Shown here piece after piece: positions 6,006 through 55,396 of a stretch of 64,000 nucleotides of DNA. The notes under the pieces are model-generated. The model searched no databases, was not told the DNA's origin, and worked only from the letters and a program-made list of their open reading frames with translations. How positions within the stretch are numbered: the stretch's first letter is position 1; every line of letters begins with the position of its first letter. This stretch comes from a virus, in the IMG/VR virus record IMGVR_UViG_3300046543_000437, positions 1 through 64,000 of that record; one strand, 5' to 3'. Made by a program: the position numbers and the translations under genes.

Positions 6006-6017
6006 CGCAACCCATCC

Positions 6018-6542
6018 TTATGCGGAGGGCCGCGCCCGCCACGGCGGCGCTGACGGGCGTCCCTGCGACTGCGGCTGCGGCTGCTGGGACTGCGGCTGGA
6101 ACTGTTGCTGCTGCGACCCGAACCCCGCGACGGGCGCGGCGCCGTCCACGGGATAGTAGTTATGGACCCGGTTCTGATCGGCGTAGTTGCCCTTGCCTTT
6201 CTCGACCCGGAGTTCGATCACCATGCGGCGGGCATGAAGCAATTCGCTGTCATCGACCGATAGCTGCCCCGTCGCGTGACAGATCGCGCTCAGCGTGCGC
6301 TGGGCGATATCGACGGTCTGTTGGCTTTGATTGAACAGGTTCAGCCGGTCGAACACCTTCTTGCCGGTTTGCGGCCCTTCAAGGATCTCCATCTGAAGTT
6401 CGAGGTAGCGCCCGCTGCGATCCTTGGTGTCCTTCATGTCGCTGGAGATGATGTGGGCGACGTATTTCCCCTCCGGGAGAAGTGGGTAACCGCGATTGGG
6501 ATCGACCTGCGTAGCGTCGAACTGGTATCCGAGTTGGGCCAT
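6018..6542 (-). CDS. DUF669-family protein, probable single-strand DNA-binding partner, 174 aa
   Basis: The first 130 residues match the DUF669 pattern of phage recombination modules: LLPEGKYVAHI, a strand with LELQMEILEGPQTGKKVFDR, then a helix QQTVDIAQRTLSAICHATG. DUF669 proteins sit beside single-strand annealing systems and are thought to bind ssDNA. The last 45 residues are a glutamine/proline-rich tail (QQQQFQPQSQQPQPQSQ) ending in arginines, as in the flexible tails of SSB proteins. The Shine-Dalgarno sequence CCAGGAGCC is good. The Sak4-like ATPase lies directly upstream. Confidence 0.87.
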   Translation of the reverse strand: MAQLGYQFDATQVDPNRGYPLLPEGKYVAHIISSDMKDTKDRSGRYLELQMEILEGPQTGKKVFDRLNLFNQSQQTVDIAQRTLSAICHATGQLSVDDSELLHARRMVIELRVEKGKGNYADQNRVHNYYPVDGAAPVAGFGSQQQQFQPQSQQPQPQSQGRPSAPPWRARPSA

Positions 6543-6579
6543 GATTCAAGGCTCCTGGCGCTGGGGGAAAAGTGAGAGT

Positions 6580-7410
6580 TCAAGCGGCTGCTTCAGCGGT
6601 GGCGGGTGGCGCTTTTTTCGATTGCTGGATCTGCGGCTGGGGTTTCGGCTGATAGGCGGCGGTCAGTGCGGTTTCCAAGACCTGCCAGCCGTTCTCCTTG
6701 GGGAAGGCGATGGTGGGCGGCAGCCCATAGCGGTTCTTGGCGACAAACCCGGCCCGCTCTTCAAGGTGAAGCAGACGCTCGCCGCTGCTGGTGGCGCGTG
6801 TCGCTTTGCGGTTAAACCCGGCATCTGTGGTCTTGGTGGCGACAGAGTGCGTGGCAAAGCCGATGATGTCGCACCACTCGGTCAGCAACGCTGCCGCAGA
6901 ATCGTGCAGATCGAGGAGGTAGCGGTCATAGGCGTCCGCAGTCGGATCCTCGAATTTCTTGATTTTGACGTGGGCAAGGATGATGACGATCATCCCCTTG
7001 TCGTTTCGCAATACGTCAAATCCGGCGAGCATGTCGCGCCAGATTTCCATCGCCGCCTTGTAGCCTTTGCCGTAGGGAATGAGGTCGATGGTCGCGACCT
7101 TATGGTCGTCGGCGACCTTTTTATGGATCAGCGTTTCGGTCCAATCGGCGGTGTCGAGGACAACCGATTTGAACTGATGCTCTTCATACGCCAACTCCCA
7201 CAGAGCCTGTCTGACATCCGCATAGGATGTCGCCAGGTCGAAGCTGGCGTTGACATCGAGCGCGTCGAGGCCGTCCTCGGTCTGGATGAAGACCGGGTTG
7301 GGCGCGGAATTGCCCCAGGTCGATTTGCCGACGCCTTCAGTACCCATGAGGACGACGCGCGGCGGTCGCGCCAGCGGTCCACGCCGCAGCGACGAGAGTG
7401 AGATTGCCAT
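6580..7410 (-). CDS. Sak4/RecA-like AAA ATPase, single-strand annealing type, 276 aa
   Basis: The Walker A loop GTEGVGKST is at residues 23-31 and a Walker B-like strand, SVVLDTADW, lies near residue 75. A basic patch and a serine/threonine-rich loop (KATRATSSG) follow near residue 205. This is the form of phage Sak4-type RecA-like ATPases, which act with an SSB-like partner in recombination; the DUF669 gene next to it supports this. The frame is open upstream, but the start at 7410 is chosen because it overlaps the preceding stop (TGATG). The C-terminus is a proline/glutamine/alanine tail, like that of its partner. Confidence 0.85.
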   Translation of the reverse strand: MAISLSSLRRGPLARPPRVVLMGTEGVGKSTWGNSAPNPVFIQTEDGLDALDVNASFDLATSYADVRQALWELAYEEHQFKSVVLDTADWTETLIHKKVADDHKVATIDLIPYGKGYKAAMEIWRDMLAGFDVLRNDKGMIVIILAHVKIKKFEDPTADAYDRYLLDLHDSAAALLTEWCDIIGFATHSVATKTTDAGFNRKATRATSSGERLLHLEERAGFVAKNRYGLPPTIAFPKENGWQVLETALTAAYQPKPQPQIQQSKKAPPATAEAAA

Positions 7411-7886
7411 CAGGCTGCTTCCTCTTTCTTTGATTCGAGCCGGTAGCTGTGACTGCCGGTGGACACGGTGCGGGCCGGTTCCAGCGCCGCCTTGATCTTT
7501 GCGGGCGCATCGGCGAACAGGCGTTCCTCTACCGTCAGCGTCCACTTGGCGTAGCGGTCGGCGATCTCCGGATCCAACTTGCGAAAGGCGTCAGTCAGCT
7601 TGTCGCGGTCCCACGCCACCTTCTTCGCCGTGTCGGCGACGACCACGATGTCGCCGTCATTGAAGCGGACGACGCCGCTCGGCTTAACGAGTTGGGCGCG
7701 GGTGTAACGCTCGCGCTCCGCGTAGCGCCGGGTCAAGATGTTGACGAGCGCCTTGCTGTGGGCCTTGGCGAGTTCCATCTCGCGCTCGACCACTTTCTGA
7801 AGGTCGATCAGAACGGCGGCGGGAAGTTCAGCCGCCTCGTCAGCCGACATGCTTTCGAGAACCTGGACGCTGATGTTGCTGATCAC
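7410..7886 (-). CDS. hypothetical phage protein, 158 aa
   Basis: The GTG start at 7886 overlaps the stop of the RusA gene (GTGA), so translation is probably coupled. The N-terminal half is a long helix with heptad-like leucines and acidic residues (about 12-55). A beta-like stretch, VVRFNDGDIVVVADTAKKVAWD, follows, and then a helical end. Proteins of this shape often stand between RusA and annealing genes in phage early operons, but I know of no activity for it. Confidence 0.7.
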   Translation of the reverse strand: MISNISVQVLESMSADEAAELPAAVLIDLQKVVEREMELAKAHSKALVNILTRRYAERERYTRAQLVKPSGVVRFNDGDIVVVADTAKKVAWDRDKLTDAFRKLDPEIADRYAKWTLTVEERLFADAPAKIKAALEPARTVSTGSHSYRLESKKEEAA

Positions 7887-8314
7887 GGCGGGTTCACTCC
7901 GACAGGGGCGACAGTGACGATCAGGCTGGGAATCTCCCCGTAGACCTTGCTGGCGAAGACCTCGCAGATCAGCGCGTCATCGCGGTAGACCACGGTGTTG
8001 AAGGCGTCGGTCGCCAGCTTTGTGAGATTGTCGAGGTCGGGCTTCTTACCCGGCCAGACCTCGCCTCTAAGCGCCGCCGCCTGTTTCTTCTTCGACCAAC
8101 TGGCGGGGATGGGCATCTCGGCCCGGAGGTAGAAGCTGAGCGGCTCGTCGAACATCGTCTTGCCGTGCATCACGTCGCTGGCAGCGTTCCGCAGCGCGGC
8201 CGCGGCGTTGCGCTGCCGGGACGGCACGAAGTGGTTGCCGTTGCCTGTCCGCATGCGGGCAAACGGCACGGGCTCACCCAACAGAGTAACGGTGATCGGG
8301 TCACGCGCAGTCAT
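7883..8314 (-). CDS. RusA-family crossover-junction endodeoxyribonuclease, 143 aa
   Basis: The RusA signature is clear: KPDLDNLTK at residues 91-99 (D93, D95, K99) and RDDALI with D112/D113, giving the metal-binding acidic residues. The length is near the 120-140 usual for the family. The start at 8314 is chosen because the ATG overlaps the preceding stop (ATGA); an in-frame ATG farther upstream would lie inside the other gene. It resolves Holliday junctions or branched DNA produced by the annealing and resection proteins encoded downstream in the same operon. Confidence 0.92.
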   Translation of the reverse strand: MTARDPITVTLLGEPVPFARMRTGNGNHFVPSRQRNAAAALRNAASDVMHGKTMFDEPLSFYLRAEMPIPASWSKKKQAAALRGEVWPGKKPDLDNLTKLATDAFNTVVYRDDALICEVFASKVYGEIPSLIVTVAPVGVNPP

Positions 8315-8685
8315 GGCGCACCGACTACCTGGCGCGGCACCGCGCGATAGATAAGGCTGCGCCATATCTGCATCGGGCGGCGGTGATTGCAGACCTGCGC
8401 GGACTGCCGGACGCGGTCGGTCTTGGCGCAGACCCCGGCACGGGCGGCGTTCTTCATCAGCGGCCCCATCGCGCGCGGCTCCGGGGTCGATGGCCCGCCG
8501 CGCATGACGCGCAGCCGCTCGATCTCGTCAGTGGTGAATTCGGCGTGGCTGCGGGCGACCTCGACAATCAGCGCGCTGACAAAGGCATGCCACTCCGGGT
8601 CCGCTCCCTCTTCGACACAATCCATCGCCTCGTCGCGGGCGTCGTCCGCAGCGTCGGGATCAAAGAGGTCGCGCAGCGGCTTCAT
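8311..8685 (-). CDS. hypothetical early protein, 124 aa
   Basis: This gene lies between the sliding clamp and RusA, with two bases to the clamp and a four-base overlap with RusA. The first half is acidic (FDPDAADDARDEAMDCVEEG). The second half is basic, with the segment CNHRRPMQIWRSLIYRAVPR and two cysteines. The acidic-basic layout may be a DNA-binding C-terminus with a mimic-like N-terminus, but this is only a reading of charge. No family is recognised. Confidence 0.7.
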   Translation of the reverse strand: MKPLRDLFDPDAADDARDEAMDCVEEGADPEWHAFVSALIVEVARSHAEFTTDEIERLRVMRGGPSTPEPRAMGPLMKNAARAGVCAKTDRVRQSAQVCNHRRPMQIWRSLIYRAVPRQVVGAP

Positions 8686-17315: not shown

Positions 17316-17494
17316 AACCAATCCGCGTCTTCTACTCGACGCTGACCCGGCGGTTTTACGCCAGCCGGCATTATCGCGAGGAAGGCGGCGGGCTGGTGAC
17401 GACGACCGGCGAGAAATTCGACGTTACCGACGATATCGCCCGCCTGGTTGTGAAATACGGGATCACCTTCGCGGAGCGGAAAGATGACCGATAA
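17312..17494 (+). CDS. small hypothetical protein, 60 aa
   Basis: The GTG at 17312 is preferred. It overlaps the preceding stop as GTGA and has GGAGG six bases in front, whereas the ATG at 17306 would touch the GGAGG itself. The protein is basic at the start (RVFYSTLTRRFYASRHYREE) and beta-like. No family is recognised. It overlaps the next gene by 11 bases. Confidence 0.62.
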   Translation: MKPIRVFYSTLTRRFYASRHYREEGGGLVTTTGEKFDVTDDIARLVVKYGITFAERKDDR

Positions 17495-18365
17495 GCTGCT
17501 CTGCATCTGGCACGGTAATTGTCAGGACGGTTTCGGCGCAGCCTGGGCGGTGCGTCACGCGCTCGGCGAGGACAATGTCGAGTTCCATGCCGGCGTCTAT
17601 CAAGAGCCGCCGCCGGATGTCGCTGACCGGCATGTTCTGCTGGTCGACTTCAGCTACAAGCGCCCGGTCCTCTTAGACATGGCGATGCGAGCGAAGACGA
17701 TCCTCATCCTCGATCACCACAAAAGCGCAGCGGAAGACCTCGCGGGCTTCCGAGGGCCAACTTACCAGCAATGGCAGGACAAAGGCCGAGGGCCTGATCC
17801 AGCCGATCCGCCGATCGCGGTGGTCTTCGACATGGAGCGATCCGGTGCCGGGCTAACCTGGGACCATCTGCTTCCCGGCAGACCGCGGCCGCGGCTGATC
17901 AACCACATCGAGGACCGCGATCTATGGCGCTTCAAGCTGCCCAAGACGCGGGAGATCAGCGCGGCGCTGTTCTCCTACCCCTACGACTTCGCCCTATGGG
18001 ACTCGCTGATGAATGAGGACGTACTGCCCAACCTTATCGTCGAAGGCGCCGCGATCGATCGCATGCACCTCCGCGAGATCGCCAACCTTCTGCCGGTAGT
18101 ACGGCGCTCGATGATGATCGGCGACATCAAGATGCCGGTCGCAAATCTGCCGCTGACCATGACCAGCGATGCCGGGAACCAGATGGCGTCTGAAGCTCAA
18201 GGTATCGCCGCTTGTTATTGGGACACGCCCGAAGGTCGGGTCTTTTCGCTGCGCTCGACCGATGACGGCCCCGACTGCCAAGCCATCGCCGTCAAATACG
18301 GCGGCGGCGGCCACGCTCACGCCGCCGGGTTCCGCATGCCGCTTAACTGGGAAGGAGACGAATGA
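17484..18365 (+). CDS. DHH-family phosphoesterase, 293 aa
   Basis: The motifs appear in order: HGNCQDGFGAAW (residues 10-21), VDFSY (D55), LDHHKSA with D77-H78-H79, an acidic helix with NHIEDRDLW, and the DHHA1 end GGGGHAHAAGF near 274-285. The layout and length fit single-domain DHH/DHHA1 phosphoesterases. These include nano-RNases, RecJ-like exonucleases and cyclic dinucleotide hydrolases. In a phage it could recycle nucleotides, trim ssDNA or degrade a host signalling nucleotide; the sequence does not decide. Confidence 0.88.
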   Translation: MTDKLLCIWHGNCQDGFGAAWAVRHALGEDNVEFHAGVYQEPPPDVADRHVLLVDFSYKRPVLLDMAMRAKTILILDHHKSAAEDLAGFRGPTYQQWQDKGRGPDPADPPIAVVFDMERSGAGLTWDHLLPGRPRPRLINHIEDRDLWRFKLPKTREISAALFSYPYDFALWDSLMNEDVLPNLIVEGAAIDRMHLREIANLLPVVRRSMMIGDIKMPVANLPLTMTSDAGNQMASEAQGIAACYWDTPEGRVFSLRSTDDGPDCQAIAVKYGGGGHAHAAGFRMPLNWEGDE

Positions 18366-26547: not shown

Positions 26548-26796
26548 TTAGTTCACCGGGCGCTCGAATTGACCGGGAGGACGAATGTCGACGCCATTGC
26601 CGTTGGATTGCTGGGTCGCGATCTGACCGGCTGCCGCCTGAAGCTGCTCCATCATTAGCGGGATCAGGGTCGACGAAATCCGGTAAGGCGTCGGCGTGTC
26701 GTTCAGCATCTGCATGATGAAATTCCAATACTGAACCTCAAGCGTCAGGGTCAGTTTGGTTTCAGGCGTAACGGGTGTAGGCTGTTGCGTGTTCAT
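26548..26796 (-). CDS. hypothetical tail-region protein, 82 aa
   Basis: The ATG at 26796 overlaps the spike's stop (ATGA). A polar threonine/proline-rich start leads to a helix (LEVQYWNFIMQMLNDTPTPY) and a glutamine/asparagine tail. It has the form of small chaperone or assembly proteins that follow fibre genes, but no family is recognised. Confidence 0.6.
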   Translation of the reverse strand: MNTQQPTPVTPETKLTLTLEVQYWNFIMQMLNDTPTPYRISSTLIPLMMEQLQAAAGQIATQQSNGNGVDIRPPGQFERPVN

Positions 26797-29700
26797 GCCA
26801 AATTCCTTTCTGGCGGGTTAAGAACAAGATTTTCCAGTTCCTCGATGCGCGCGGTCAACTGTTGAAACGCGCGGATGTAGTAGGCGTCGAGCTGCTCGTG
26901 AATAATGCAGCGCATCGGGTCACCAGCAAGGTCGCCAATAACCGGAACGAGAGTCACCGCATCAGGTATCAGTTCTTCAAGTTCCTGCGCGACAAGGCCG
27001 CAAGACACGGAAGACACGTCACGGGGCATCAGCTCGCGCCCCTTTTCAGTCCAATCAAACGCCCTCACGGGTATCGCGCCGATCACCGCCAGGGCATCGA
27101 TCTCGCTGGCTCGGATGTTGAGCTTCAGTCGCGCGTCGGACCAACTGGCGTTGGGAGTGTAATTGAAGCCCGACGCTCCTTGGTCTGGACTGACCCCAAG
27201 ATAGCCACCGCTGATTATGGCGAACGCCATCCAATCCCAGCCGCTGCCCTGCCAGTTCCCGATGCGCGCGCCTCCGTTCCCGGTGCCCCGAAACACACTG
27301 TTCGCAGTTATGTCGTTCCCCGCATAGACATTGCCGCCGCTGGTGACATAGCCACCGTGAACCTCGTTCGGGCAGTAGATGCCGCCGTTCGGTGCTTCGA
27401 TGCACCAGCCGCCACCGTTCGCCTGAAGATGGTTTCCAGAGGTCATGCTGCCCGCGCACCAGATGTCGCCCCGCGAGTAATGACCAGCGGCGTGAGTTGT
27501 CTGGTCGAAGTAGGCATACCCGCCGCTGTTGTAGATGCGGCAACCGCCGAAATTGAGGGCACTGCACGTCATTTCGCTGTCGGTATGGATCGGCGAGCCG
27601 GTCCACCACCAGCCGGTGTAGTTCTGGAACAGCAGGCCGTTGCAAAAGAGGCCACTGGTGGCATGAACATCCCAAGCGGTGAAGGTGCCGCCCGTGTTGA
27701 TGTTGCCGCCTCGGTCGATTGTCACCCGGTCGCCATCGACGCTCGACCACAGGCGGGCGACACTGCCGGATGAATACCACTGCCAGTCGAAGTTAGCGTT
27801 CCCAGAGTCTCGGTTCTGGAACATAAATCCGCCAGTACTGCCGCTGGTGCGAACTTCGTTAGTGCATTCGATGTGAGCGGAACTGCGGATGTAGATCAGC
27901 CGAGAACTGTCACCTATGTAGATGTTGTTGTCGCCAGTATACAAGAGAAGCATATTTTGAGGATTGTTCGCGGAGTCTCTTCCTTGCACCCAGTTGTTTT
28001 GGGCCAAGATAAGATTGAGGCAATTCACATTGGCACAATAGATAGAGCCGTTATGCTGCGCGTCGCCGTTGGCGCGGAGCTGATGCATCGACGAGGCAGA
28101 AGAGTTGTAGACCATGAAACCAAGATTGCCCGTACCGGGCATAGCCACGATCCAGTTGCCGTCGCCGTAAATTATCGGACCATTGCCGGAACCAAGACCC
28201 GTGCGGAAGCCCCCAAAAGAAAGAGTAGAACCGCTACAGCCGATGTTCCCGGTGGTGTTAAGATTGCCGCGTGAAACGAGGTCAGAACAGGTGATCGGTT
28301 GGACAAAATAGGCCCACCCGCCGCTGTTGTAGAGCTGGCAACCGCCAAACCACAGACTGCCGCCGGCCTGGATGTCACTGTCGCTGTGTATCGGTGAGGC
28401 AGTCCACCACCAGCCGCCGTTATTGCCCCACCAAATGCCGTTGACACCTGTACTGCCGTTGGCTTGGACGTTGCCGCCACATGTCAGACTTTGCTGGATC
28501 GTTGCATTGCCATTGGTGTCGATCTGAAACCTCATCTGACCAACACTCTCGTCGGCGACATACCACCAGCCATTGTTGATGCAACCGCAACTCCAGACGC
28601 GAAGGCCGCCCACTTCATACCAAAGCCGAGCGTGGTTCCCGCTGGCCGCTACAATTCTGACATTATCGTTATTATTGAAGCGGATTGACGAGGCATCAAT
28701 AGCAACGCCCACACCGCGTAATCTCGTACTCCAACCCGCGCCGCCGTCACCGATGTAGAAGTTGCCGTCGCTCGACATGAGGATGGCCGCGCGCCCGCCC
28801 TGCCACAGCCAGTTGTCTAGCGGCATGAAGATTTGTTGATTTGCGTAGAGGCTGTTGGTGACTGTTAAGTTGCCGTTGAAAGTCGAGCCACCGTTAGAAG
28901 TAAACCCGCCAGTGACCGCGATTCCGGCATTGGCATAAAGACCGCCGCCTACATCTACTCGATGCCCCAGCGTCACGTTGCCAGAGGCGAGGTCCACCGT
29001 AAAGGGACGCAACCCGTTCCAAGTACCCCAAGCGTCATTGTTCGCGGTCAGCAACAGGTACATGGTGGACGGATCGGTGTACCACATCGATCCAATGCCG
29101 GTGCTGCCTGCGTTGGGCGACATGCGGTAGCTCGGCCCGCCACCTCTTTTTAGAAACTGCCCAGCGGTAGTCACCCCGCCGTTGAGATTGAGGTTGCCAC
29201 CGGGGATAAGTTGACCAACGGCCGCGCCGTTCACGACAAACTGAATTTCGCCAGCGCCGCCAGTGGCGGTTCCCCAGAATTGGATGCCCGGCCCGTTTGC
29301 ATTCAGAAAACCGACCGTTCCGGCGTCGGTCGTTGCGTTGCCGCCAATCAGGAAATTGGGGCCACTGATATTACCTCCTGCGGTGATCGCGCCGCCCGCG
29401 TTGACTGCTCCAGGGATGTAGACGTGACCGTCAGCGTAGAAGCTGAAGAAGGAGACAGCGCCTGTCGCGGGACCGACGCGGATGTTCAGGTTGGTGCCGT
29501 CCGCGTTGTAGACGTACATCTGGGTGCCGCTAATGGCGAACCCGGTCCCTGCCGCGTAAACCGTGGAACCAGCATAGAGGTTACCGCTGGCGTCGATGCT
29601 CAGCCTGTCGGCACCGTTGTAAAGGCGAGTGATCCCGCCGACCGCGTACCAAAGCCAACTGAGAGAGGTGTTTGCTCGATCTTGCCAGAGAATTTGAGCT

Positions 29701-30923
29701 GTGGTGCCGACCGCGTTGAGGCCCGTAGTGTTGATCCCGGCGTTCGCGGTGAGCATCCCGTTGATCGTGAGCGGCCCGGTCAGCGTCGTCGCACCGCTAA
29801 TGTTGAGACTACCCCCGTTTATGTTGCCGGGAACCGCCAGGTTGCCGACGCCATCGAGAGACAGCAATTGCGTCAGCGGACCACTTACATTCGGGAAATC
29901 GTAGATCAACAGCCCGCCGCCGCCGCCACCGTTTCGGTTGATAAACCAATCAGTCTCGCCTGCACCATTGGAGAAGTTCCAACCAATCGCCGAGCCGCCG
30001 GTGTTGCCGATGCCGAACAGCGCATTGAGCTGCGCCCAAGTGTTGCCGCCGACGTTGACTGAACCGATGCGTAACCCTGCCCCGGTGGAAACCTGGCCGG
30101 CAGCGATCAACTTTCCCCCGGCAGAGAGCGACATCGCTTGCCCGCCGGGATTGTTGTACCAGATGAATGAGCCGTTGCCGGTGCCGAGCTGCGTCGTCAT
30201 GTTGGTGCTGTCGGCATAGACGTAAGGCCCGCCAGCCGTCACACCGGAAAAATACAGCGTCGCCCCACCCATGAGGATATTCGACCCGGTGCGGATGAAC
30301 CCCGGCGTGCTGATGCTCCCGCCACTGTCGAAGGTGACCCGGTCGCCTGATTGATCGTTCCACAACCGTGCGATGCCACCCTGCGCGTACCAGCCCCAGT
30401 TCGTCGTGCCAGCGCGATCTTGAAACGTGAGGATGGCAGTAGAGCCGGTCGAGCTAATCGCGCCGGCAATCGTCAGCGAGCCGGCCGAATTGATCGCGCC
30501 TGTATTGGTGATGCCGTCCAGAACGCTTGTGCCGACGACCGTTAGATTTCCGGTTACGTTGACATTATCGAACAAGTTGATCTTGCGATTACCCGATGCC
30601 GTTCCTGCACCGACGATATTCAGAGCATCGCTGGCATAGCCCCGGTAATCGATCGACCCGGCGGCGAAGTCGTCACCAGGGCTGATCCCGAACCGCCAGC
30701 GATGCGCCCCAAACCCTGCCCATGCGCTGTACCCAGGATCGCCGACGGTCTTGTTGTAGAGGAACCCGTACATGGGATATTGCGTGCCGCCGAACACCGG
30801 CTCGTAGACGCCGCCCGATGGCACGCTCGCCATCCATTTGACGCCGTCCCACATCCATGTCGACCAGCCGCTGGTGAACAGTTGACCTACGGTCAGGCCG
30901 GGTCCGCTCGGAAAATCGGCCAT
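26793..30923 (-). CDS. tail spike/fibre with C-terminal peptidase S74 intramolecular chaperone, 1376 aa
   Basis: The last 115 residues are the S74/endosialidase-type autoprocessing chaperone: SDARLKLNI near residue 1263, then IGAIPVRAFDW, VSCGLVAQELEELIPDAV and a terminal coiled coil (YYIRAFQQLTARIEELENLV). The 1200 residues before it are glycine-, asparagine- and aromatic-rich repeats (two copies of a WWWT.SPIH.DS...FGGC..YNSG unit), as in long trimeric beta fibres. The chaperone trims itself off after folding. It probably contacts the host. Confidence 0.9.
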   Translation of the reverse strand: MADFPSGPGLTVGQLFTSGWSTWMWDGVKWMASVPSGGVYEPVFGGTQYPMYGFLYNKTVGDPGYSAWAGFGAHRWRFGISPGDDFAAGSIDYRGYASDALNIVGAGTASGNRKINLFDNVNVTGNLTVVGTSVLDGITNTGAINSAGSLTIAGAISSTGSTAILTFQDRAGTTNWGWYAQGGIARLWNDQSGDRVTFDSGGSISTPGFIRTGSNILMGGATLYFSGVTAGGPYVYADSTNMTTQLGTGNGSFIWYNNPGGQAMSLSAGGKLIAAGQVSTGAGLRIGSVNVGGNTWAQLNALFGIGNTGGSAIGWNFSNGAGETDWFINRNGGGGGGLLIYDFPNVSGPLTQLLSLDGVGNLAVPGNINGGSLNISGATTLTGPLTINGMLTANAGINTTGLNAVGTTAQILWQDRANTSLSWLWYAVGGITRLYNGADRLSIDASGNLYAGSTVYAAGTGFAISGTQMYVYNADGTNLNIRVGPATGAVSFFSFYADGHVYIPGAVNAGGAITAGGNISGPNFLIGGNATTDAGTVGFLNANGPGIQFWGTATGGAGEIQFVVNGAAVGQLIPGGNLNLNGGVTTAGQFLKRGGGPSYRMSPNAGSTGIGSMWYTDPSTMYLLLTANNDAWGTWNGLRPFTVDLASGNVTLGHRVDVGGGLYANAGIAVTGGFTSNGGSTFNGNLTVTNSLYANQQIFMPLDNWLWQGGRAAILMSSDGNFYIGDGGAGWSTRLRGVGVAIDASSIRFNNNDNVRIVAASGNHARLWYEVGGLRVWSCGCINNGWWYVADESVGQMRFQIDTNGNATIQQSLTCGGNVQANGSTGVNGIWWGNNGGWWWTASPIHSDSDIQAGGSLWFGGCQLYNSGGWAYFVQPITCSDLVSRGNLNTTGNIGCSGSTLSFGGFRTGLGSGNGPIIYGDGNWIVAMPGTGNLGFMVYNSSASSMHQLRANGDAQHNGSIYCANVNCLNLILAQNNWVQGRDSANNPQNMLLLYTGDNNIYIGDSSRLIYIRSSAHIECTNEVRTSGSTGGFMFQNRDSGNANFDWQWYSSGSVARLWSSVDGDRVTIDRGGNINTGGTFTAWDVHATSGLFCNGLLFQNYTGWWWTGSPIHTDSEMTCSALNFGGCRIYNSGGYAYFDQTTHAAGHYSRGDIWCAGSMTSGNHLQANGGGWCIEAPNGGIYCPNEVHGGYVTSGGNVYAGNDITANSVFRGTGNGGARIGNWQGSGWDWMAFAIISGGYLGVSPDQGASGFNYTPNASWSDARLKLNIRASEIDALAVIGAIPVRAFDWTEKGRELMPRDVSSVSCGLVAQELEELIPDAVTLVPVIGDLAGDPMRCIIHEQLDAYYIRAFQQLTARIEELENLVLNPPERNLA

Positions 30924-30939: not shown

Positions 30940-33432
30940 CTACGCCATAACAATAATCTGTACAGCGCCAAAAGTAATTGGCGACAACGATACATTGCCG
31001 GTTGCAGCAAGCGCATCGTTCGCCTCAGTGACCGCCAGCGTACCTAAAATCGGCGGGAAGGCAGATACCACACCACTCGCGGAAATCGCGTCAGCAGCCT
31101 CTAGAACCGATAGCGTGCCGGTGCGTGGCGGCAGAGGCACGTTGCCGGTGGCGGCGAGCGTGTCGTTCGCTTCGGTGATCGCCAGCGCGCCACCGACAAC
31201 CAGCCCACCCGCCGCCGCGAGCGCATCGTTCGCCTCGGTTACCGTCAGCGTGCCGTTGACCCTTGGCCCGCCCGCACCGGACAGCGTATCGTTCGCCTCG
31301 GTAACCGCCAGCGTACCGACTGTTTGATCGGCCCTGAATGCAGCAATCTTGGCGACGGCGATGGTGCCGCCAGGGATCGTCCACACCGGGTTGACTGCGG
31401 CGACTTGGCCTTGGCTTAGGTAAGCCATCGCCCCGCCTTCATTCGACCCCGACGTGAAGTTGATCGCGTTGGCGATCGTAAAGCCGCTATCGACAGCGCC
31501 GAAGCTTGACCCAGCCACGCCAGAACCCGCCGCCAGGATCAGTAGTTCCTTGTCGATCGCTGGCGTGATCGAGCCGGGGCTGCATGATGTCGTCCCGGCG
31601 GCACCGTTCCTAAACTGATCCAGCGAGTAGTTGTAGTTTTTCGGCCCAGCGAAAGCACCAACCGCAAGAACCGAGTTCGTATCGTTGGTTCCAGCCTGCG
31701 TGTAAGTAAAGATATGTCCCGTGCCGACAACCGGATTAGGACAAAAATAAATCTGGGTCAGCAGCTCGTTGCTGAGAACCTGATCGTAAGCCCCGGCAGG
31801 AAGAAAAATGTTTCCTTTGTTGTCTGTGATATTTGCTGGGGCGGTATAGTTTCCCCCATACATCGTAAAAGTTAGGGCGATGAAGTTCGTCCCGGTCGTA
31901 TCGATCGCCGCCGTTATGTTGGTTACCCCAGAAGGACTCGCGTGAGCGGTCCTTGCCATCAAGACCCAATCTGACCCACCGACAGCGGCGATCGTGTCGT
32001 TCGCCTCGGTGACCGCCAGATTTCCGGTGGCTGGCGCGACGACGCTGGAGAGAGCCTTAAACGAGGCGATCTTGGCAACCGACCGGGTTGCTGCGGGCGT
32101 CGACCAGACCGGGTTTGCCGCCGCCGCAGCACCCACCTGTATCAGGTAAGCAAGCCCGCCGCCCTCGTTGACCCCCGCAGCAAAACTGATAGCGTCGGTG
32201 ATCGTGAAGCCGCCCGTGATGGCGGTGATGCTCGAACCGGCGACCCCCGCGCCGACGCCGGTAACCAGCAACTCGTCAGGGGCAGTCGGCGTGATCGAGC
32301 CGGTGCTAGCCGTCGTCGTCCCGGCAGGGCCGTTGCTGCCCTGATCGAAGGCGTAATCGCCCAACCCGGCAAAGGCAGCAACCGTCAGAACCGAATTGGT
32401 ATCGTTGCCGTTTGGGTTATTGACCGAAAAAATATGTCCTGGCCCAACATTCGGAGCTAGGCAGTAATAAAGATGCGTAAATATTTCAGCGGTGTTTGTC
32501 GCCTGCGTTCCGGCTGGAACGTAGTTGTTTCCTAGATTGTCTGTAACACTCAACGGGACAGTGTAATTCCCGTTGTACATCGTAAAACCCAAGGCTATTA
32601 AATTAGCCCCGGTCGTATCGATCGCCGTCGCCGTCGTGTTCGTCGGTCCACTGACCGCTTGGGCGGTATGGGCGATCAGCCCCCATTTAGCTCCGTAGGG
32701 TATTCGGGCGAGGCTATCGTTTGCCTCGGTAACCGCCACCGTGCCACTGACCGGGCCGACGTAAGGGCGAAGGGCGATGACCATCGCCACCCATGACCGG
32801 CTGGTGCCGAGCGTCGGGGCATAGGTCAATCGCGCGCTGGTTACCAGACTGCCGCCAGCACCCGTCTCGTTGTTGGTTGCCGTGCCGCCCGTGGTGCCGA
32901 TGCGCGTCGGCGGGACGGCCCAGCCGCCGGTCGCCTGCGTGAATGCATCGCCCTGCGGGCCGTTGGTCGCAACCCAGCCGATTGCCAGCGAATTGGCGAG
33001 CGCCGGGGCGACAGCCATCTGGACCGATGGCGCTGTACTCGACCCAGTGGCAAAGGCCGTGACCGTCGTATCGACCGGCGTCGTCGCATCGACGCCCATC
33101 GCATAGAACGCCGACACGGCACCGGCAGTGGCGGCAGAGTAGGTAACGGTGAGCGTCGTGCCTGCCGCGATCTGCGCGCCGGCATTCAGCCCGGTAAAGA
33201 TCGCCCCGTAAGACGTGGTCCCGGCTTGCGAAACCTGTCGGGTAAAAGTGATGCCGCCAAACGAAACCGCGTTGGCGAGCGCGCTAACCGGAAAGCCGGC
33301 CGCGCAGACGACTACCAGGCCGTTGGTCGGAACCGCCGCCGTCGAGGCAAACGAAACCGTCGTTCCGGTCTTGACGGTCCCGGTGCCGAGGGCGTTAGGA
33401 ACGCCTACTAGGGCGACGACCTCATCGGCCAC
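30940..33432 (-). CDS. repetitive tail/appendage protein, 830 aa
   Basis: The protein is made of an N-terminal beta domain (1-235), then two related domains of about 240 residues (each with FTMYxGNY, NDTNSVL and a GSITP pattern), and then short spacers. The linker word TEAND (one copy degraded to LEAAD) occurs seven times, usually as GTLAVTEANDxLAAxG; four or five lie in a tandem block at the C-terminus. Threonine-, alanine- and glycine-rich beta composition suggests a surface appendage. The repeats look able to expand or shrink. Confidence 0.75.
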   Translation of the reverse strand: MADEVVALVGVPNALGTGTVKTGTTVSFASTAAVPTNGLVVVCAAGFPVSALANAVSFGGITFTRQVSQAGTTSYGAIFTGLNAGAQIAAGTTLTVTYSAATAGAVSAFYAMGVDATTPVDTTVTAFATGSSTAPSVQMAVAPALANSLAIGWVATNGPQGDAFTQATGGWAVPPTRIGTTGGTATNNETGAGGSLVTSARLTYAPTLGTSRSWVAMVIALRPYVGPVSGTVAVTEANDSLARIPYGAKWGLIAHTAQAVSGPTNTTATAIDTTGANLIALGFTMYNGNYTVPLSVTDNLGNNYVPAGTQATNTAEIFTHLYYCLAPNVGPGHIFSVNNPNGNDTNSVLTVAAFAGLGDYAFDQGSNGPAGTTTASTGSITPTAPDELLVTGVGAGVAGSSITAITGGFTITDAISFAAGVNEGGGLAYLIQVGAAAAANPVWSTPAATRSVAKIASFKALSSVVAPATGNLAVTEANDTIAAVGGSDWVLMARTAHASPSGVTNITAAIDTTGTNFIALTFTMYGGNYTAPANITDNKGNIFLPAGAYDQVLSNELLTQIYFCPNPVVGTGHIFTYTQAGTNDTNSVLAVGAFAGPKNYNYSLDQFRNGAAGTTSCSPGSITPAIDKELLILAAGSGVAGSSFGAVDSGFTIANAINFTSGSNEGGAMAYLSQGQVAAVNPVWTIPGGTIAVAKIAAFRADQTVGTLAVTEANDTLSGAGGPRVNGTLTVTEANDALAAAGGLVVGGALAITEANDTLAATGNVPLPPRTGTLSVLEAADAISASGVVSAFPPILGTLAVTEANDALAATGNVSLSPITFGAVQIIVMA

Positions 33433-33847: not shown

Positions 33848-36800
33848 TTAAGGCCGTTGCGCGATCACGGTGATGCCGATGTCGGCCAAGGTCGCGTCTT
33901 GCGATGCCGGCGCGACGAGCTGCACCACATCGCCCGCCACCAGAGAGGCTCCAGCGCCCGACAGGGTGCAGGAGGTTGCCGACGTGGTTGTGATCACGAT
34001 GCTGCCGATTGCGGTCGTCGTGCCGCCCGAAATCTTGTTCACGGTGAAGGTCGCGTTGGCGGTGCTTCTCACGCTGTCATAGACCACTGATCCCGCCAAG
34101 GCGGCAGGGATGGACAACGCCATCCCGATGACCACGTTGAAGACCGCGCTGGCCGCAGGCTTACCCGGCAGGATGAAGGAGAGCGGCACGCTGCGGACAT
34201 ATCGGCGGGTTGCTGGCTGGAGGTTCGCGGTTGGGTCGGCGGCCAAGGTGAGCGCGCCGGTCATCGTTCCGCCGCCCGTGGGCAAAAATGAGGTCGAGGT
34301 CGAGATCGTCGGTGGCGACGTTCCGGTATCGATGCTGATGCCGGAACCGGCCACATAGCCGCTGCCATCAGCGCCTTGCGGACCTTGGAGATTTCCCTTC
34401 AACGCCCAAATGTTCGCGCCCGTCCCGGCGAGACGCAGTAGCGTTTCATGCCCATCGAGTGTCGAGATCAGAAACTCGACATTACCGTCGCCATCGAGGT
34501 CCGCGATCAATGGCGTTCCTTCGATCCCTGCCGGCATGCGGAACTGCCCGACCATCGCGCCCGCTTCACTATACGCGCCGACCGTCCCGCTCATGTCGCA
34601 GCTTACCGCGACGACGCCGCCATGCGATCCGAAGTCGACGATGCTTGGGCTGGAGTTGATCCCGATTCCACCGGGGGCAAGCTGGGCCTGCCAGTGCAAA
34701 GTGCCATCTGTATTGAAGCACCAGACGATGCCGAGATCGTTACCGACGACAAAGCGGCCATCGGCGAAAATCGCGGGCCGGTCGTCCACGTCCGCGCCCA
34801 TATCGATGGTTGCGTGCTTCACTGCGCCCGTTTGACCATTCAAGACGTAGACATTGTTCGACCGGCTCGATGCGAGGATTTCGATCACACCATCGCCGTC
34901 GATGTCGGCGGCCGAGACGAACGCATCCATCCCATCATCGCCGGTCGAGGACGGCTTTGTTCGCCACTTCAGAGCGCCGGTCGCTGAGTTCAGGCAGTAA
35001 AAATAACCATCCACGCTGCCCACGCAGACTTCGGCCTGCCCGTCGCCATCTACGTCCATAACGAGCGGAAACGGCTCGATGCTCTCCCCCGTCTGATAGC
35101 GCCAGACCATCGCGCCGGTCGTTGCGTTCAGCCGGACGATCTGCCCGTCGAAGCAACAGACGTACAGCGCCGTACCGACGAGCGTCCCGGCATGCTGGTA
35201 GTAACCGTCGCTGTCGTAAGCAGGAATGACCTTGTAATGGCTAGTGGCGTCGGGGATCGGCGAGAAGGCATCGTATGTCCAGATTTTGTTTGCATCGGTC
35301 TGAGAGATTTCGCGGGTTTGACCCGCGCCGGTCCCAGAGGTGATCTGAATGGAAGCGTTCTCGCCCTGAACCCCGCGAAAGTTAAAGCAGTTTGGCACCC
35401 AGTTCTTCGTCGTATCGGTGATGTTGAATTGAGTTGCCGAGGTCACCGTGCCGGTGCCTTCACGATCGTAGACGCTATGCCACTGCCAAATCCACCCGCC
35501 GGTCGAATTCAGGCACCGGACGGTGCCGTCGTGACTAGCGCCGAAGAACTCAGGCTCGCCGTCGCCGTTGACATCGCCCGCTTGGCAGCGACCGTAGCAG
35601 GAGTCCGCGAACGCATAGCGCCAGCGAACTGCACCGTTGGCATAGTCCAAGACGTACAGGAACCAATCCCAAGTCTGAAAGACAACCCATTGGTTGACGC
35701 CCGCCGCTCGCGCATTGGCGAAGCCAGCCTTCGGGACAAGGATTGGCGAACTGTAGTTGGGTTCGCCGCCGGGAGTGTTCCAATTCCAGACCGTCGTCAT
35801 CAGCAGACCGTTATTCGACTTCTGATAGAAGTCACCAGTGTCTGCGTCGATATAGAAGTCACCAATATTGCCGAGCGCGAGGGCAGGTATTCCAGAGCCT
35901 TCATACCATATCGAGCCGGGGGTTCCGGCTGAGCCGGCGGGTCCGGTCGGGCCACTCGGCCCCGGCGGTCCCGGCACTGTGCTGGCGGGTCCAGCAGGGC
36001 CGGTCGGGCCACTCGGCCCAGGTGGTCCCGGCACCGTGCTAGCGGGTCCAGCAGGGCCTGGAGGACCGGCTGGGCCAGTACCCGCAGTGATCGGAACGCC
36101 GTTGATATAATAGCCGCCCGTCACATTGACGGTCCCGGCACCCAAATCGCCGCCGGTCGGCATCCCCCCAGCAGCGGTGGTCAGCGCCAGCCCCCGGCTG
36201 AGCGACATCCGCAGGACTGAGTTGATCGTTCCCGGCGTGTTGGTGACGAACTCGATCGCCGCCCCGGCTGCGCTGTCCGTCCAATTCTCGGTGGCGCGTA
36301 TCTGCACGCCCGCCACGGCTTGACTGTAGCCGGTCGCCAGCCGCCCGTTCGACCCGAAGAACCCGACGAGGTCGCCCACCTGTACAGCCGCTGGAGCCGC
36401 CGCGTTCCCGCGGGAGAAGCGGCAGAGGTAGAATGGGTTGCCGCTCGCGGTATTGGCATAGGCATCGAGCATATGCCCGACACCTTCCGGTCCATCGTTC
36501 GACGCGAGAAAGAGTACCGGATAACCAACCGGCGCATGCGGTCTGCCAGGATTGATCGCGAGCGCGCCGGTAAGGGTGCCGCCTGCGAGTGGAAGCCCGC
36601 CCAAGGCTGCGAGCGCGGCGACCGGCGTCGTCGAATTGGTCCCGCCATTGGCAATCGAAACCGGCACCGCCAGACTGATAAAAACCTGACCGCTCGTTCC
36701 GCCGCCGGTCAGCCCGACGCCAGGAATGACGGCAGTGATCGAACCGCCGCCGCTGCCGTCACCCGTTCCCGGCGGGCCTTGCGGCCCCGGCTGATTTACA

Positions 36801-37099
36801 ACCGCAACCCACTGTGCGCTGTTACCGTCGTCAAAATAAATGTAGAGTTGAGCGCCAAAGGAATCAAACCATAACGTCCCTGGATACGGGTTAGCTGGAG
36901 GTTGCGTACCAATAATAGCACGACCGATATAAGACCTACCCGGTATAGGCTCGAATATCCACTTTCCACCGACAGCCATACCGTCACCAACGACGATATC
37001 TCCGTTGGAAACATTGATAACCACCTCGCCTTGCAGCGGCGTATAACTAGCAAGGCTGGTGTCTGTTCCTCTCGTTTGCTGAAGCTGTTTGTGCGACAT
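33848..37099 (-). CDS. tail fibre with collagen-like stalk and calcium-site beta-propeller, 1083 aa
   Basis: The layout is an N-terminal attachment region (1-330), a Gly-X-Y stalk of about 55 residues with a tandem repeated 18-residue unit (336-391), a beta-propeller (about 405-895), a short second PQG segment, and a C-terminal beta knob. The propeller has four calcium loops of the DxDGDG type (VNGDGEPEF, DVDGDGQAEV, DIDGDGVIEI, DLDGDGNVEF, near 508, 683, 733 and 869), as in FG-GAP/integrin-type blades. It also has PQQ-like words (GAVRWRY, GAMVWRY, GALKWRT). A propeller head is a good candidate for receptor binding. Confidence 0.85.
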   Translation of the reverse strand: MSHKQLQQTRGTDTSLASYTPLQGEVVINVSNGDIVVGDGMAVGGKWIFEPIPGRSYIGRAIIGTQPPANPYPGTLWFDSFGAQLYIYFDDGNSAQWVAVVNQPGPQGPPGTGDGSGGGSITAVIPGVGLTGGGTSGQVFISLAVPVSIANGGTNSTTPVAALAALGGLPLAGGTLTGALAINPGRPHAPVGYPVLFLASNDGPEGVGHMLDAYANTASGNPFYLCRFSRGNAAAPAAVQVGDLVGFFGSNGRLATGYSQAVAGVQIRATENWTDSAAGAAIEFVTNTPGTINSVLRMSLSRGLALTTAAGGMPTGGDLGAGTVNVTGGYYINGVPITAGTGPAGPPGPAGPASTVPGPPGPSGPTGPAGPASTVPGPPGPSGPTGPAGSAGTPGSIWYEGSGIPALALGNIGDFYIDADTGDFYQKSNNGLLMTTVWNWNTPGGEPNYSSPILVPKAGFANARAAGVNQWVVFQTWDWFLYVLDYANGAVRWRYAFADSCYGRCQAGDVNGDGEPEFFGASHDGTVRCLNSTGGWIWQWHSVYDREGTGTVTSATQFNITDTTKNWVPNCFNFRGVQGENASIQITSGTGAGQTREISQTDANKIWTYDAFSPIPDATSHYKVIPAYDSDGYYQHAGTLVGTALYVCCFDGQIVRLNATTGAMVWRYQTGESIEPFPLVMDVDGDGQAEVCVGSVDGYFYCLNSATGALKWRTKPSSTGDDGMDAFVSAADIDGDGVIEILASSRSNNVYVLNGQTGAVKHATIDMGADVDDRPAIFADGRFVVGNDLGIVWCFNTDGTLHWQAQLAPGGIGINSSPSIVDFGSHGGVVAVSCDMSGTVGAYSEAGAMVGQFRMPAGIEGTPLIADLDGDGNVEFLISTLDGHETLLRLAGTGANIWALKGNLQGPQGADGSGYVAGSGISIDTGTSPPTISTSTSFLPTGGGTMTGALTLAADPTANLQPATRRYVRSVPLSFILPGKPAASAVFNVVIGMALSIPAALAGSVVYDSVRSTANATFTVNKISGGTTTAIGSIVITTTSATSCTLSGAGASLVAGDVVQLVAPASQDATLADIGITVIAQRP

Positions 37100-52401: not shown

Positions 52402-54015
52402 TTACCGCACCTGAGACAGTACGGGGTAAAAGTCACAGGTCGAACTCGACCCGTCCTCGGCGGTCAGTGTGAGAAGCCCTTCGTTATCGATCGTCGCGCT
52501 GACGATCCGCCCCGGCGGGCCGCGTTCCCCACGCGGACCCGCTTCACCCTTCTCCCCACGCTGACCTTGCTTGGCGATCAGTTGCCAATTCTCGCCGGGG
52601 CAAACCCCAGGCTGGTCAGACCGCGCAATAAACGACGCGCCGCCGAGCGCCACGATGTCCAAAGCGCGATAATCTGTCCCGGCTTTCCAAGTACCGCGAA
52701 CGGTCAACGAGCGGCCATCGACCCCCGGCGCCGCCAAACAGATCCAATCGTCATGCGGCGGCGGATGCCCGGTGTCCCGCTGGGCCTGCCAGGTGGCTCC
52801 CTCACGAACGACGACCTCCCCCTCGTAATGGACGCCGTCCTGCCACAGCTTGACCGGCGGCAGCTTGCCGATCAGCCCTTCTGCCCCACGTTCGCCGCGC
52901 TCACCGGCCTCACCACGCGGTCCCAGATCGCCGTCACGCCCCGGCATTCCCGGCTCACCGCGCTCACCGATCTCGCCGCGCTCGCCCTGTGGCCCCGCTT
53001 CGCCGCGTTCGCCGGGTAGACCGGCTTCGCCGCGCTCGCCCGGTAGACCGGCTTCGCCGCGCTCGCCCACCGCCCCTGCTTCGCCACGCTCACCGGGCAA
53101 TCCCGGCTCGCCACGCAGCCCCGGTTCGCCATCACGGCCCGCCGTGCCAGCCGGACCCATCGGCCCCGGCTCGCCGTCCTCGCCATCGGCACCGTTGACA
53201 CCATCATCGCCGTCTTCACCGGGTTCGCCTTGCGGCCCCGGCGGTCCCGGCTGGCCCGCTGGTCCCGGCGGCCCCGGCTCGCCCTGCGCGCCGGCTGGTC
53301 CCGCTTCTCCAGGCTCGCCATCTGCGCCGTCTTTACCGTCCGCTCCGGCTGGTCCCGGCGGTCCCGGATCGCCCTTGGCTCCAGGCGGTCCCGGTTCGCC
53401 TTGCGGCCCCGGCTGACCATCCATACCGGCGACGCCGTCATCGCCGTCATCGCCCGGTGGACCCATCGGCCCGATGTCGCCCTTCGGCCCCATCGGCCCC
53501 GGCGGGCCGACTTCAGGCGCGGGCAACCGCGTCAAGGCAGTCTCGACGATCAGCCGCGCCATCACGGCCTCGTCTGGCGGCGGCCCCATCGGCCCCAGCA
53601 ACCCCGGCTCACCGCGCGCCCCGCGCTCGCCTTGTGGCCCAGGAAGCCCCTGTTCGCCAGATGGGCCTGTGACAGCCTCACCGGGCAATCCACGCTCCCC
53701 AGCCTCACCACGCTCGCCCTGCGGGCCGATCTCGCCGCGGTCCCCCTTCTCGCCTTGCGGACCCGGTGGGCCGACAATGGTTTCCCCCGGCTGACCACGC
53801 TCGCCTTGCGGGCCTTGCTCGCCGTTCCGCAGCGTCATCAGCCGGGTCACGATTTGCAGTTCGAGCTCAGCCTTGAACGCGCGCAGAGACTCGATTTCCT
53901 GTCGAAGCTCTGCCAGACCGGCTGTCAGGGATAGCTTGACCTCTCGCTCAATCCGAGCGGCGACAGCCCCCATGACCTCGCCAAGAACATCAGGCAGCGA
54001 GTCGATGGCGGTCAT
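52402..54015 (-). CDS. collagen-like protein with carbohydrate-binding-like C-terminus, about 537 aa
   Basis: A 60-residue helical head with heptads (about 8-60) leads into about 320 residues of Gly-X-Y repeats with many GERGE, GPPG and GEDGDDG units. The C-terminal 150 residues have [20 protein letters not shown] and [20 protein letters not shown], a W-Y-G-W spacing like CBM5/12 modules, then a second short collagen run. The ATG at 54015 is taken; 54075 is in frame but lies deeper in the portal gene. It may be a head fibre. Repetitive DNA (27-base units near 53015-53067) makes length variable. Confidence 0.8.
53014..53067 (-). repeat. tandem 27-base repeat in the collagen-like gene
   Basis: Two adjacent copies of a 27-base unit beginning GGTAGACCGGCTTCGCCGCG, with degenerate copies on both sides, encode GLPGERGEA-type triplets. 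This kind of repeat can change copy number by slippage. Confidence 0.7.
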
Positions 54016-55396
54016 ATGAAGCGCGGAAGGCGGCACGGAAGGCAGCGTTTTGTTGCTGCTGTTGCTCTGGTGCATTTGTGTCGCCCCCGTCAGTCGGTGC
54101 CGGCGGCGGTGTCGGCGGGGTCGCGGATGGCGGTGATGGAGGTTCCATCTTTGCGCCGTAGCTCAACGGCACAACTTGCTGTTGCACCCGTGGCATGTCG
54201 CCGTAGCCGCCCTTGACCTTCGGCAGGTCTTCGCTCGCCCGCGCCTCGTCCGGCGAGTAGATGCCACTGATGACACCGCGCGCCAACGCCTCGATCCGCT
54301 CGCGATAAGCCGAGCGAAGAAGCGCCTTGGTGTCGAATTCGAGGTACTCGTCAGGATAGCCCGCCAAACCGAACATCTGGCCGAAAGCTTCCTCGATGTG
54401 GTTCAGCGCAAAGCCGAGGCCGCTCGCGATCCACGACTGCATCAGCAATTCGGTCGAGTTGTAGGTCGTGCCGCCGAGGCCGAAAATCTGAAGCGGAATC
54501 CGCAGCGCCAGAGCGATGTTCTGGTCGCTCATCTTAAGGATTTCGGCAAGCTGGGAATCGACCGCATTGATCACGGCGGGCTTCGCTTTGAGGCCGTGAG
54601 TGAGGATCGGGCTGTTCCCGGCATTCTCGCCTTGCGTCTGATCGTCCCACCTCGAACGCGCATCCTCGACCTGTTGCCGGGTCAGCGGCTGGTCAGTCTC
54701 CAGCATGTAGGAGGGGCGAGCCATGTTGAGGTAGAAGGCGAGTTGCTGCGACAGCGCCGCGGTCGACATCGCCAGTTCGAGCGCCGCCGCAAGGATCGGG
54801 CTGACGCCTTTCAGCGGATGAACCGGAGTATGCAGCCGGACGTGCAGAACATCGCGCGCCGGAGCCGGGATCGTCAGATCGAACCGCCGTTGGGCGATCT
54901 CGTTGCCCCACAGGCTGTAGAAGACGCTGCCGTCCTCGCCGATCATGGCGATGCCGCTCCGCATCAGATGCAACTCGGTGATCTCGCTGCGGGCGTTGCG
55001 CTGAGCCACCGCGAACACCTCGCCCTTGTCGTAAAGGCGACGTGTCAGGTTCATCATAAAATCGGAGATGCTCTCATAATCGTTGGGGGTCTTGATGATC
55101 CGTTGCAGGGCGCTGGTGGTGACGCGCTCGCGCCCGCCGTCACGGGTGCGGCGCCAGTGGTCGCCAGGACACATGGCAACGGTCTGGCTGTACGCCGAGA
55201 CGCACGCCTCGACCATCGCGCTGCGCTGACCGTAGGGCTGCGGCTTGTATCCGGTCTGCCACCAGTTCCAATAGCGACCGGCGCTGGCAGTGATCAAGCC
55301 GCCGCCGGGATCGTCGACCCAATACGGGCCGGGACGGTACTGCCCCTCGACAGCCCGCTTGCCCCACGGCAGCAGGTTGGTCAGCCAGTTTGCCAT
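53990..55396 (-). CDS. HK97-type portal protein, 468 aa
   Basis: The phage portal family pattern is clear: [60 protein letters not shown], then [20 protein letters not shown] and the clip and barrel region. The C-terminal 70 residues are a proline/glutamine tail. It forms the dodecameric gate for DNA. In HK97-type phages portal usually comes directly after TerL; here it follows the capsid genes, which is unusual. Confidence 0.93.

Follow-up and report, generated by a model that had tools for sequence, protein, structure and literature searches.

A predicted eight-bladed PQQ/FG-GAP propeller with calcium-type loops, set on a collagen-like stalk in the middle of a phage tail fibre

The stretch of viral DNA examined here (the window, 64,000 of the 64,257 bases of IMG/VR record IMGVR_UViG_3300046543_000437) contains a tail-fibre gene at 33848..37099 on the minus strand, which starts with ATG and encodes 1083 amino acids in an uninterrupted open reading frame (ORF). 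Reading the protein from its N terminus, we find a probable anchor and shaft, a short Gly-X-Y stalk, a predicted β-propeller with four calcium-type loops, and a C-terminal knob (Table 1). An earlier note on the same DNA, written from the letters alone, had described this gene as a fibre with a collagen stalk, a calcium-loop propeller and a β knob, and the analysis below follows up that description.

The central domain belongs by sequence to the propellers that resemble pyrroloquinoline quinone (PQQ) proteins and to the FG-GAP group. It passed the Pfam cut-offs of PQQ_2 (PF13360, 51.6 bits against 27.6), FG-GAP_3 (PF13517, 50.9 bits against 26.9, in three stretches) and the lambda-carrageenase β-propeller (PF25292, 66.4 bits against 26.8), and fell below that of FG-GAP PF01839 itself (18.8 against 22.1). 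From the sequence alone, phmmer matched the designed Cake, Bagel and Scone propellers, the best of them Cake10 at 1.9e-30; it also matched 3hxj, a PQQ protein of archaeal origin, at 2.1e-16. The PQQ-like tryptophan words that the earlier note had pointed out are present as W493, W540, W666, W712, W803 and W898. Reading the repeats by eye gave eight blades (residues 434-497, 493-542, 628-669, 666-715, 712-766, 765-808, 803-855 and 853-903), neighbouring segments sharing a few overlapping residues. Blades 2, 4, 5 and 8, which carry the loops, resemble one another most, with z values of 6.8 to 16.1 across their six pairs. The insert between blades 2 and 3 matched no family above its cut-off, and its matches to phage proteins were at chance level (best E 0.08).

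An AlphaFold2 model of residues 434-905, built with an alignment to eight remote propellers encoded on viral contigs (19-27% identity), predicts a closed eight-bladed toroid with a predicted template modelling score (pTM) of 0.67 and a mean predicted local distance difference test score (pLDDT) of 59.2; the insert was modelled poorly (pLDDT about 30-45). Foldseek searches with this model returned 1765 matches in the PDB at E ≤ 0.001, Cake9, Cake10, Cake8 and BamB foremost among them. In VIA-align the best fit was to the eight-bladed Cake8, with a Z score of 39.8 at 1.7 Å and 317 of the 320 Cake8 residues matched, the next rows reaching at most 36.6. No integrin chain appeared among the best 50 of the 1765 Foldseek rows or in the VIA-align list, which excludes nothing. 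Pfam, phmmer and the model together bear out the seven- or eight-bladed PQQ/FG-GAP propeller that the earlier note had foreseen on this fibre, with eight as the predicted number, and comparison of a predicted structure with such propellers, the check it had proposed, points the same way.

The motif D-x-[DN]-G-D-G occurs at residues 509, 682, 732 and 867, within two residues of the positions first reported (about 508, 683, 733 and 869), and is followed in all four cases by Glu at position 9 of the loop. Shuffled versions of the protein held 0.0075 such motifs on average and four motifs in none of 2000 shuffles; six-frame translation of the whole window gave a single further motif, at 22619 on the plus strand. 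The residues of ligand type are complete in every loop. In the model, whose numbering is converted to protein residues by adding 433, the loops sit inside four of the eight blades, in the hairpin between strands A and B, where PQQ relatives have a short turn. The arrangement is seen most fully in blade 4, in which strand D of the preceding blade (664-669) is followed by strand A (679-681), the loop (682-690) and strands B (690-695), C (700-704) and D (710-714). Loops 1 and 3 each lie between two strands of a single blade, and loop 4 has a strand before it but no more than two strand residues after it, so that its placement there rests on sequence. Local model confidence is fair at loops 2 and 3 (pLDDT 60-79) and poor at loops 1 and 4 (pLDDT 45-59).

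These positions differ from the earlier expectation that the loops would lie between blades, and taken literally they go against it. They do not count against an FG-GAP reading; in FG-GAP propellers such as those of integrins, which have seven blades, the loop likewise lies within a blade, in the turn that joins strands A and B. Most likely the four loops bind calcium structurally and stiffen the A-B hairpins of blades 2, 4, 5 and 8. By analogy with the integrin propellers, calcium in these hairpins would stiffen one face rather than form a bridge to a receptor.

Table 1. Features of the tail-fibre protein and of the neighbouring fibre, with window coordinates
Feature	Residues	Position (strand)	Evidence or remark
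N-terminal part, putative virion anchor and shaft	1-335	36095..37099 (-)	89% identity kept in L004 and L005
Cassette without counterpart in L004	336-938	34286..36094 (-)	alignments; L004 has AFNP instead
Gly-X-Y stalk, interrupted, collagen-like	342-397	35909..36076 (-)	Gly-X-Y runs; tail PHROGs 819 and 6320 span the stalk
Connector between stalk and propeller	398-433	35801..35908 (-)	largely within the matches to phrog_819 (341-414) and phrog_26654 (307-448)
Predicted eight-bladed PQQ/FG-GAP β-propeller	434-905	34385..35800 (-)	Pfam, phmmer, model, Foldseek, VIA-align, blade repeats
Loop 1, DVNGDGEPE, blade 2	509-517	35549..35575 (-)	flanked by model strands 71-77 and 83-88; pLDDT 48-59
Non-blade insert of 89 residues between blades 2 and 3	544-632	35204..35470 (-)	low pLDDT; absent from the earlier note
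Loop 2, DVDGDGQAE, blade 4	682-690	35030..35056 (-)	model strands 246-248 and 257-262; pLDDT 70-79
Loop 3, DIDGDGVIE, blade 5	732-740	34880..34906 (-)	model strands 293-300 and 306-312; pLDDT 60-65
Loop 4, DLDGDGNVE, blade 8	867-875	34475..34501 (-)	model strand 431-435 before it; pLDDT about 45
Stem of GGTMTGALTL type before the knob	939-966	34202..34285 (-)	common to L004
C-terminal knob, recurrent fibre cap	967-1083	33851..34201 (-)	phrog_11585, 22757, 7049
Separate S74 fibre close to the fibre gene		26793-30923	Peptidase_S74 match

When the first 398 residues were used to scan viral contigs, five relatives came up, of which two are close. In the first (L004, a 34.4-kb contig) the fibre has 484 residues: the equivalent of residues 1-335 at 89% identity, the four residues AFNP, and then the equivalent of window residues 939-1082 at 65%. 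The second (L005) keeps the N-terminal part, also at 89%, and continues as a different fibre of 823 residues, which contains collagen as well as repeats and matches residues 906-970 in a stem-like stretch; the gene for this fibre has no match to the knob, and another ORF of that contig (L047) does. Neither contig, and both may be fragments, gave a propeller match at E ≤ 0.001. Because L004 joins the same N-terminal part directly to the same knob, the alignments mark residues 336-938, the stalk together with the propeller, as a dispensable cassette that one phage has and its relative lacks. With three phages to compare, a gain looks the same as a loss, and the surrounding fibre region is itself variable. 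The guanine-cytosine (GC) content of the cassette (0.600) lies close to that of the N-terminal part (0.617) and of the window (0.608), and no clear shift marks a recent import. The L005 fibre (6001-8472) also holds a second copy of the module found at window residues ~60-127 (51% over 68 residues), which reads as a further sign of module shuffling.

Around the fibre, the two preceding genes are 84.6% (297 residues) and 86.5% (642 residues) identical between the window and L004, and the gene order after the fibre is the same apart from two extra genes in the window. Neither L004 nor L005 has a match to the window genes for proteins of 127 and 830 residues. Divergence is seen in the S74 fibre, which in L004 keeps 63% identity over its first 341 residues and 52% over its last 303.

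Outside the propeller the evidence is more uneven. The N-terminal part approaches Mtd_N (PF18454) at residues 10-40, with 22.0 bits for the whole protein and 25.2 for residues 1-112 against a cut-off of 26.3. A Gly-X-Y stalk does precede the propeller, as the earlier note had it, but it is short and broken, with runs of 4, 5 and 7 triplets, and scores 19.7 bits against the Pfam Collagen cut-off of 27.2 (PF01391). The C-terminal knob likewise stands; of the three PHROGs that it matches, one is a tail-fibre family and the other two have no known function. An all-β fold for the knob is no more than putative, the full-length model being poor.

A scan with residues 918-1083 found stem or knob at 60 viral loci, with many matches to the stem only; among them phmmer placed the knob proper at the C-terminal end of 36 ORFs on 34 contigs (L004 and L009 are one contig, and L097 carries two of the ORFs). 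None of these 36, four of which start at the edge of their locus (L049, L050, L051 and L091), has a propeller match or a DxDG[DN]G motif. As far as these sequences go, the knob appears to be a recurrent cap, with a propeller beside it only in the window fibre.

The window also encodes a terminase, a portal, a capsid protein, a tape measure protein of 2658 residues and an integrase, and because of this set we regard the virus as a long-tailed phage with a probably temperate lifestyle. The fibre gene belongs to the tail block, where it follows the tape measure gene and two genes of unknown function (642 residues, phrog_8917; 297 residues, phrog_8610). Beyond it come a gene with a virion-protein match (phrog_3758), the gene for the 830-residue protein and that for a fibre of 1376 residues with Peptidase_S74. 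The 830-residue protein (30940-33432, minus strand) has C-terminal repeats of the type AVTEANDTLAATG, with five 41-nucleotide copies spaced 63-75 nucleotides apart at 31004-31317. Elsewhere, a second gene rich in matches to collagen-like and tail-fibre PHROGs (52402-54075, minus strand) overlaps the end of the portal gene, and a DHH phosphoesterase gene lies at 17484-18365 on the plus strand (phrog_4771, 4.1e-98).

For the host we can offer only a guess, an alphaproteobacterium, which is drawn from the matches of two proteins. At 1e-5 the 642-residue neighbour matched 5 of the 50,697 phage records, which come from three kinds of phage (Caulobacter phage Sansa, Azospirillum phage Cd and EBPR siphovirus 2). 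The knob matched phages of Caulobacter, Loktanella and Mesorhizobium, with Achromobacter, a betaproteobacterium, also among them. The capsid protein matched 910 records, mostly from phages of enteric bacteria and Vibrio, with a Rhizobium phage best at 27%, and leaves the host undecided.

Searches for close homologues of the propeller came back empty from the viral contigs and, at E ≤ 1e-3, from the 50,697 phage records, where at E ≤ 10 the best match was an unannotated faecal scaffold at 9e-3 (8e-3 for the best match of the whole fibre). Genome contigs gave two remote FG-GAP proteins, with E-values that apply only to the candidate stretches, and in the L003 genome, which holds one of the two, nothing matched at E ≤ 0.001. 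Among Pseudomonadota genomes 5 of 398 matched at E ≤ 1e-6, with ORFs that read as BamB-like, and no donor of the cassette was identified in any of these four collections. A strict DNA pattern for a hybrid PQQ/FG-GAP blade recovered the window as positive control and nothing in the viral contigs, from which the record of the window was possibly left out. A relaxed version gave three stretches, of which two read as unrelated proteins of the FG-GAP type and the third as a phage protein that holds the motif once, and two patterns for PQQ blades gave 26 and 12; all of these are exact-pattern scans rather than homology searches and are no proof of absence. The openly licensed literature, judged mostly by title, yielded no report of a phage fibre that bears a PQQ or FG-GAP propeller.

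Ordinary PQQ propellers are less rare in phages. With one of them (L037) as query, 10 of the 50,697 phage records matched at 1e-5: two annotated as outer membrane beta-barrel assembly protein, two as yfgL, four unannotated faecal scaffolds, Salicola phage SCTP-2 and Levilactobacillus phage ENFP1. In ENFP1 the propeller protein has 688 residues, and the gene before it has tail-fibre PHROG matches. PQQ-like propellers near phage tail genes thus exist, and the window fibre is the only place where, judging by these sequences, we have seen one that forms part of a fibre and comes with a stalk and calcium-type loops.

Several other propeller proteins came to light in the viral contigs. PQQ propeller genes stand in phage structural blocks in L034 and L039 (3574-5079), the latter close to tail genes and beside a protein that matches pectin lyase and virion proteins. 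A protein of ~530 residues with a C-terminal PQQ/BamB-type propeller occurs in seven contigs (L014 720-2321, L030 9064-10665, L021 1122-2714, L023 5192-6784, L026 9905-11497, L027 2203-3807 and L028 2594-4207); in the two that were scanned, its N-terminal part matched a phosphoribosyltransferase in L014 (29.1 against 26.3) and had no such match in L023. On an 86.8-kb viral contig, a protein of 1404 residues (L036 7102-11313) combines a PQQ propeller with Peptidase_C1 (24.3 against 20.7) and Ig-like stretches, and looks like a papain-like peptidase that holds a propeller within it.

Taken together, these observations are probably best explained by a modular tail fibre in which the stalk and propeller in mid-fibre form a cassette serving as a platform for host recognition, with loops that bind calcium for structural purposes. 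The N-terminal third would anchor the fibre to the tail, and the C-terminal knob would cap it and probably help it to trimerise. The cassette of ~600 residues, gained in the window phage or lost in its relative, would give each chain one eight-bladed propeller, preceded by a short triple helix of the collagen type. Three propellers around the fibre axis would then make a platform part-way along the trimer, as in the receptor-binding protein of Staphylococcus phage phi11, with the collagen helix spacing them from the anchor and the knob closing the trimer. The propellers themselves would serve as an adhesin, not as an enzyme, and would bind a glycan or protein on the host surface. The earlier note had called the propeller an unusual receptor-binding head; a mid-fibre propeller is indeed predicted, but it is followed by the knob and is not the tip, and propellers on phage adhesins were already known (PMC4901313).

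Several points weigh against this explanation. The ligand, the bound calcium and the location of the fibre on the virion are matters of inference, and the PQQ-like fold serves elsewhere as a scaffold or an enzyme. Several blade pairs show no similarity, pairs 5-6 and 6-8 falling below zero. In the model 164 of 472 residues have a pLDDT below 50, with blades 1-2, blade 8 and the insert weak, and a full-length AlphaFold2 model built without relatives was unusable (pLDDT 35.6). The alignment rows were themselves distant PQQ propellers and favour that fold, so that the model lends support but is no independent proof, although the Pfam and phmmer matches do not depend on it. With no close homologue of the propeller, selection on its loops and surface is unmeasurable.

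We consider it unlikely, though worth weighing, that the propeller is only a spacer or rigid platform and that the receptor is bound by the C-terminal knob or by the neighbouring S74 fibre. The knob is kept in L004, which lacks the cassette, and so has the look of the conserved distal part; relatives of it or of the stem were seen at 60 viral loci, and the Peptidase_S74 fibre is encoded nearby. A toroidal domain of 472 residues with divergent blades would, however, be an expensive spacer, and the mid-fibre propellers of phi11 are thought to hold the binding cavity (PMC4901313).

An enzymatic propeller, such as a depolymerase domain that degrades polysaccharides, is improbable. Six-bladed propeller depolymerase domains have been predicted in Klebsiella phages (PMC11448410), and the match to the lambda-carrageenase family PF25292 would fit such an activity. 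The cut-off of this family was passed too by the ENFP1 phage propeller (45.9) and by the L023 protein (32.4), and for this reason we take PF25292 to read the repeat rather than the activity. The model of PQQ-dependent dehydrogenases also stayed below its cut-off (PF01011, 13.9 against 26.7). The protein does have adjacent cysteines, 648-649, in a strand of blade 3, which is not where we take the dehydrogenase pair to lie.

That the cassette arose as a chimera of the assembly, or is an insertion in decay rather than a working part, is very hard to credit: among the viral contigs and phage records searched only the record of the window carries it, but the frame is open across 1083 codons with in-frame junctions at module borders, the surrounding gene order is that of L004 apart from the two extra genes, the GC content is within the range of the window, and all four loops keep their ligands.

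A bolder form of the preferred explanation, the host-recognition cassette, is no more than tentative. In it a calcium-stabilised hybrid of FG-GAP and PQQ blades on a collagen-like stalk would be a plug-in adhesin between a constant anchor and knob, whose in-frame gain or loss switches host recognition and makes adsorption calcium-dependent. If true, this fibre would be the first of the collagen-propeller kind to be described from a phage, as far as the literature and sequence searches reach, and an eight-bladed calcium-loop propeller, as predicted, would join the set of phage adhesin heads. L004 offers a natural control, with the same anchor and knob and no cassette. The pair therefore gives a route to testing what an inserted domain adds to host recognition, and it bears on whether calcium-dependent adsorption can belong to a single plug-in domain.

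Among known propellers, BamB, Cake8 and 3hxj share with the window fibre the PQQ-type blade sequence and, by the model, the eight-bladed fold, but the Cake and PQQ-type sequences aligned with it lack DxDGDG at the matching turns and have a different role. A BamB orthologue, or a BamB mimic acting on the β-barrel assembly machinery, was considered and rejected: TIGR03300 gave 35.1 bits against an equivalog cut-off of 285.2, and BamB is periplasmic, which we counted against the mimic. Propellers of the integrin-alpha FG-GAP type have the same DxDGDGxxE loop between strands A and B, in keeping with the PF13517 match, and differ from the eight blades predicted here and from their PQQ-type tryptophan words. 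The best BFVD match to the model was the PQQ protein of the Haloarcula tailed virus HCTV-2 (E 7.8e-12, 417 residues). This protein, gp60, is annotated as a β-propeller repeat protein with a PQQ-like domain and is encoded by the second gene after the only annotated baseplate protein, but it is a separate protein of 417 residues rather than part of a fibre.

The closest phage parallel in overall layout is the receptor-binding protein Gp45 of phi11, which has a stem, a five-bladed propeller platform and a C-terminal tower; the authors who described it knew of two other putative propeller receptor-binding proteins, PRD1 P2 and phiKZ gp131C (PMC4901313). Both proteins place a propeller in mid-chain with a shaft before it and further domains after it, and the order of shaft, propeller and C-terminal domains is the same. 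Gp45 as described there has five blades and a coiled-coil stem, whereas the window fibre has eight predicted PQQ/FG-GAP blades, by the model and by reading of the repeats, with calcium-type loops and a collagen-like stalk (PMC4901313). Propellers on phage adhesins are thus already known, and the eight-bladed PQQ/FG-GAP kind behind a collagen-like stalk was not found elsewhere in our searches. The combination of a β-propeller with a collagen-like shaft does occur in the eBAP3 fibres of extracellular contractile injection systems, which belong to toxin-delivery particles and connect to a TNFR-like domain, whereas here the protein is a phage fibre whose C terminus matches phage PHROGs (PMC12923769). 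The window fibre would thus be a phage counterpart to the collagen-propeller fibres of these injection systems (PMC12923769).

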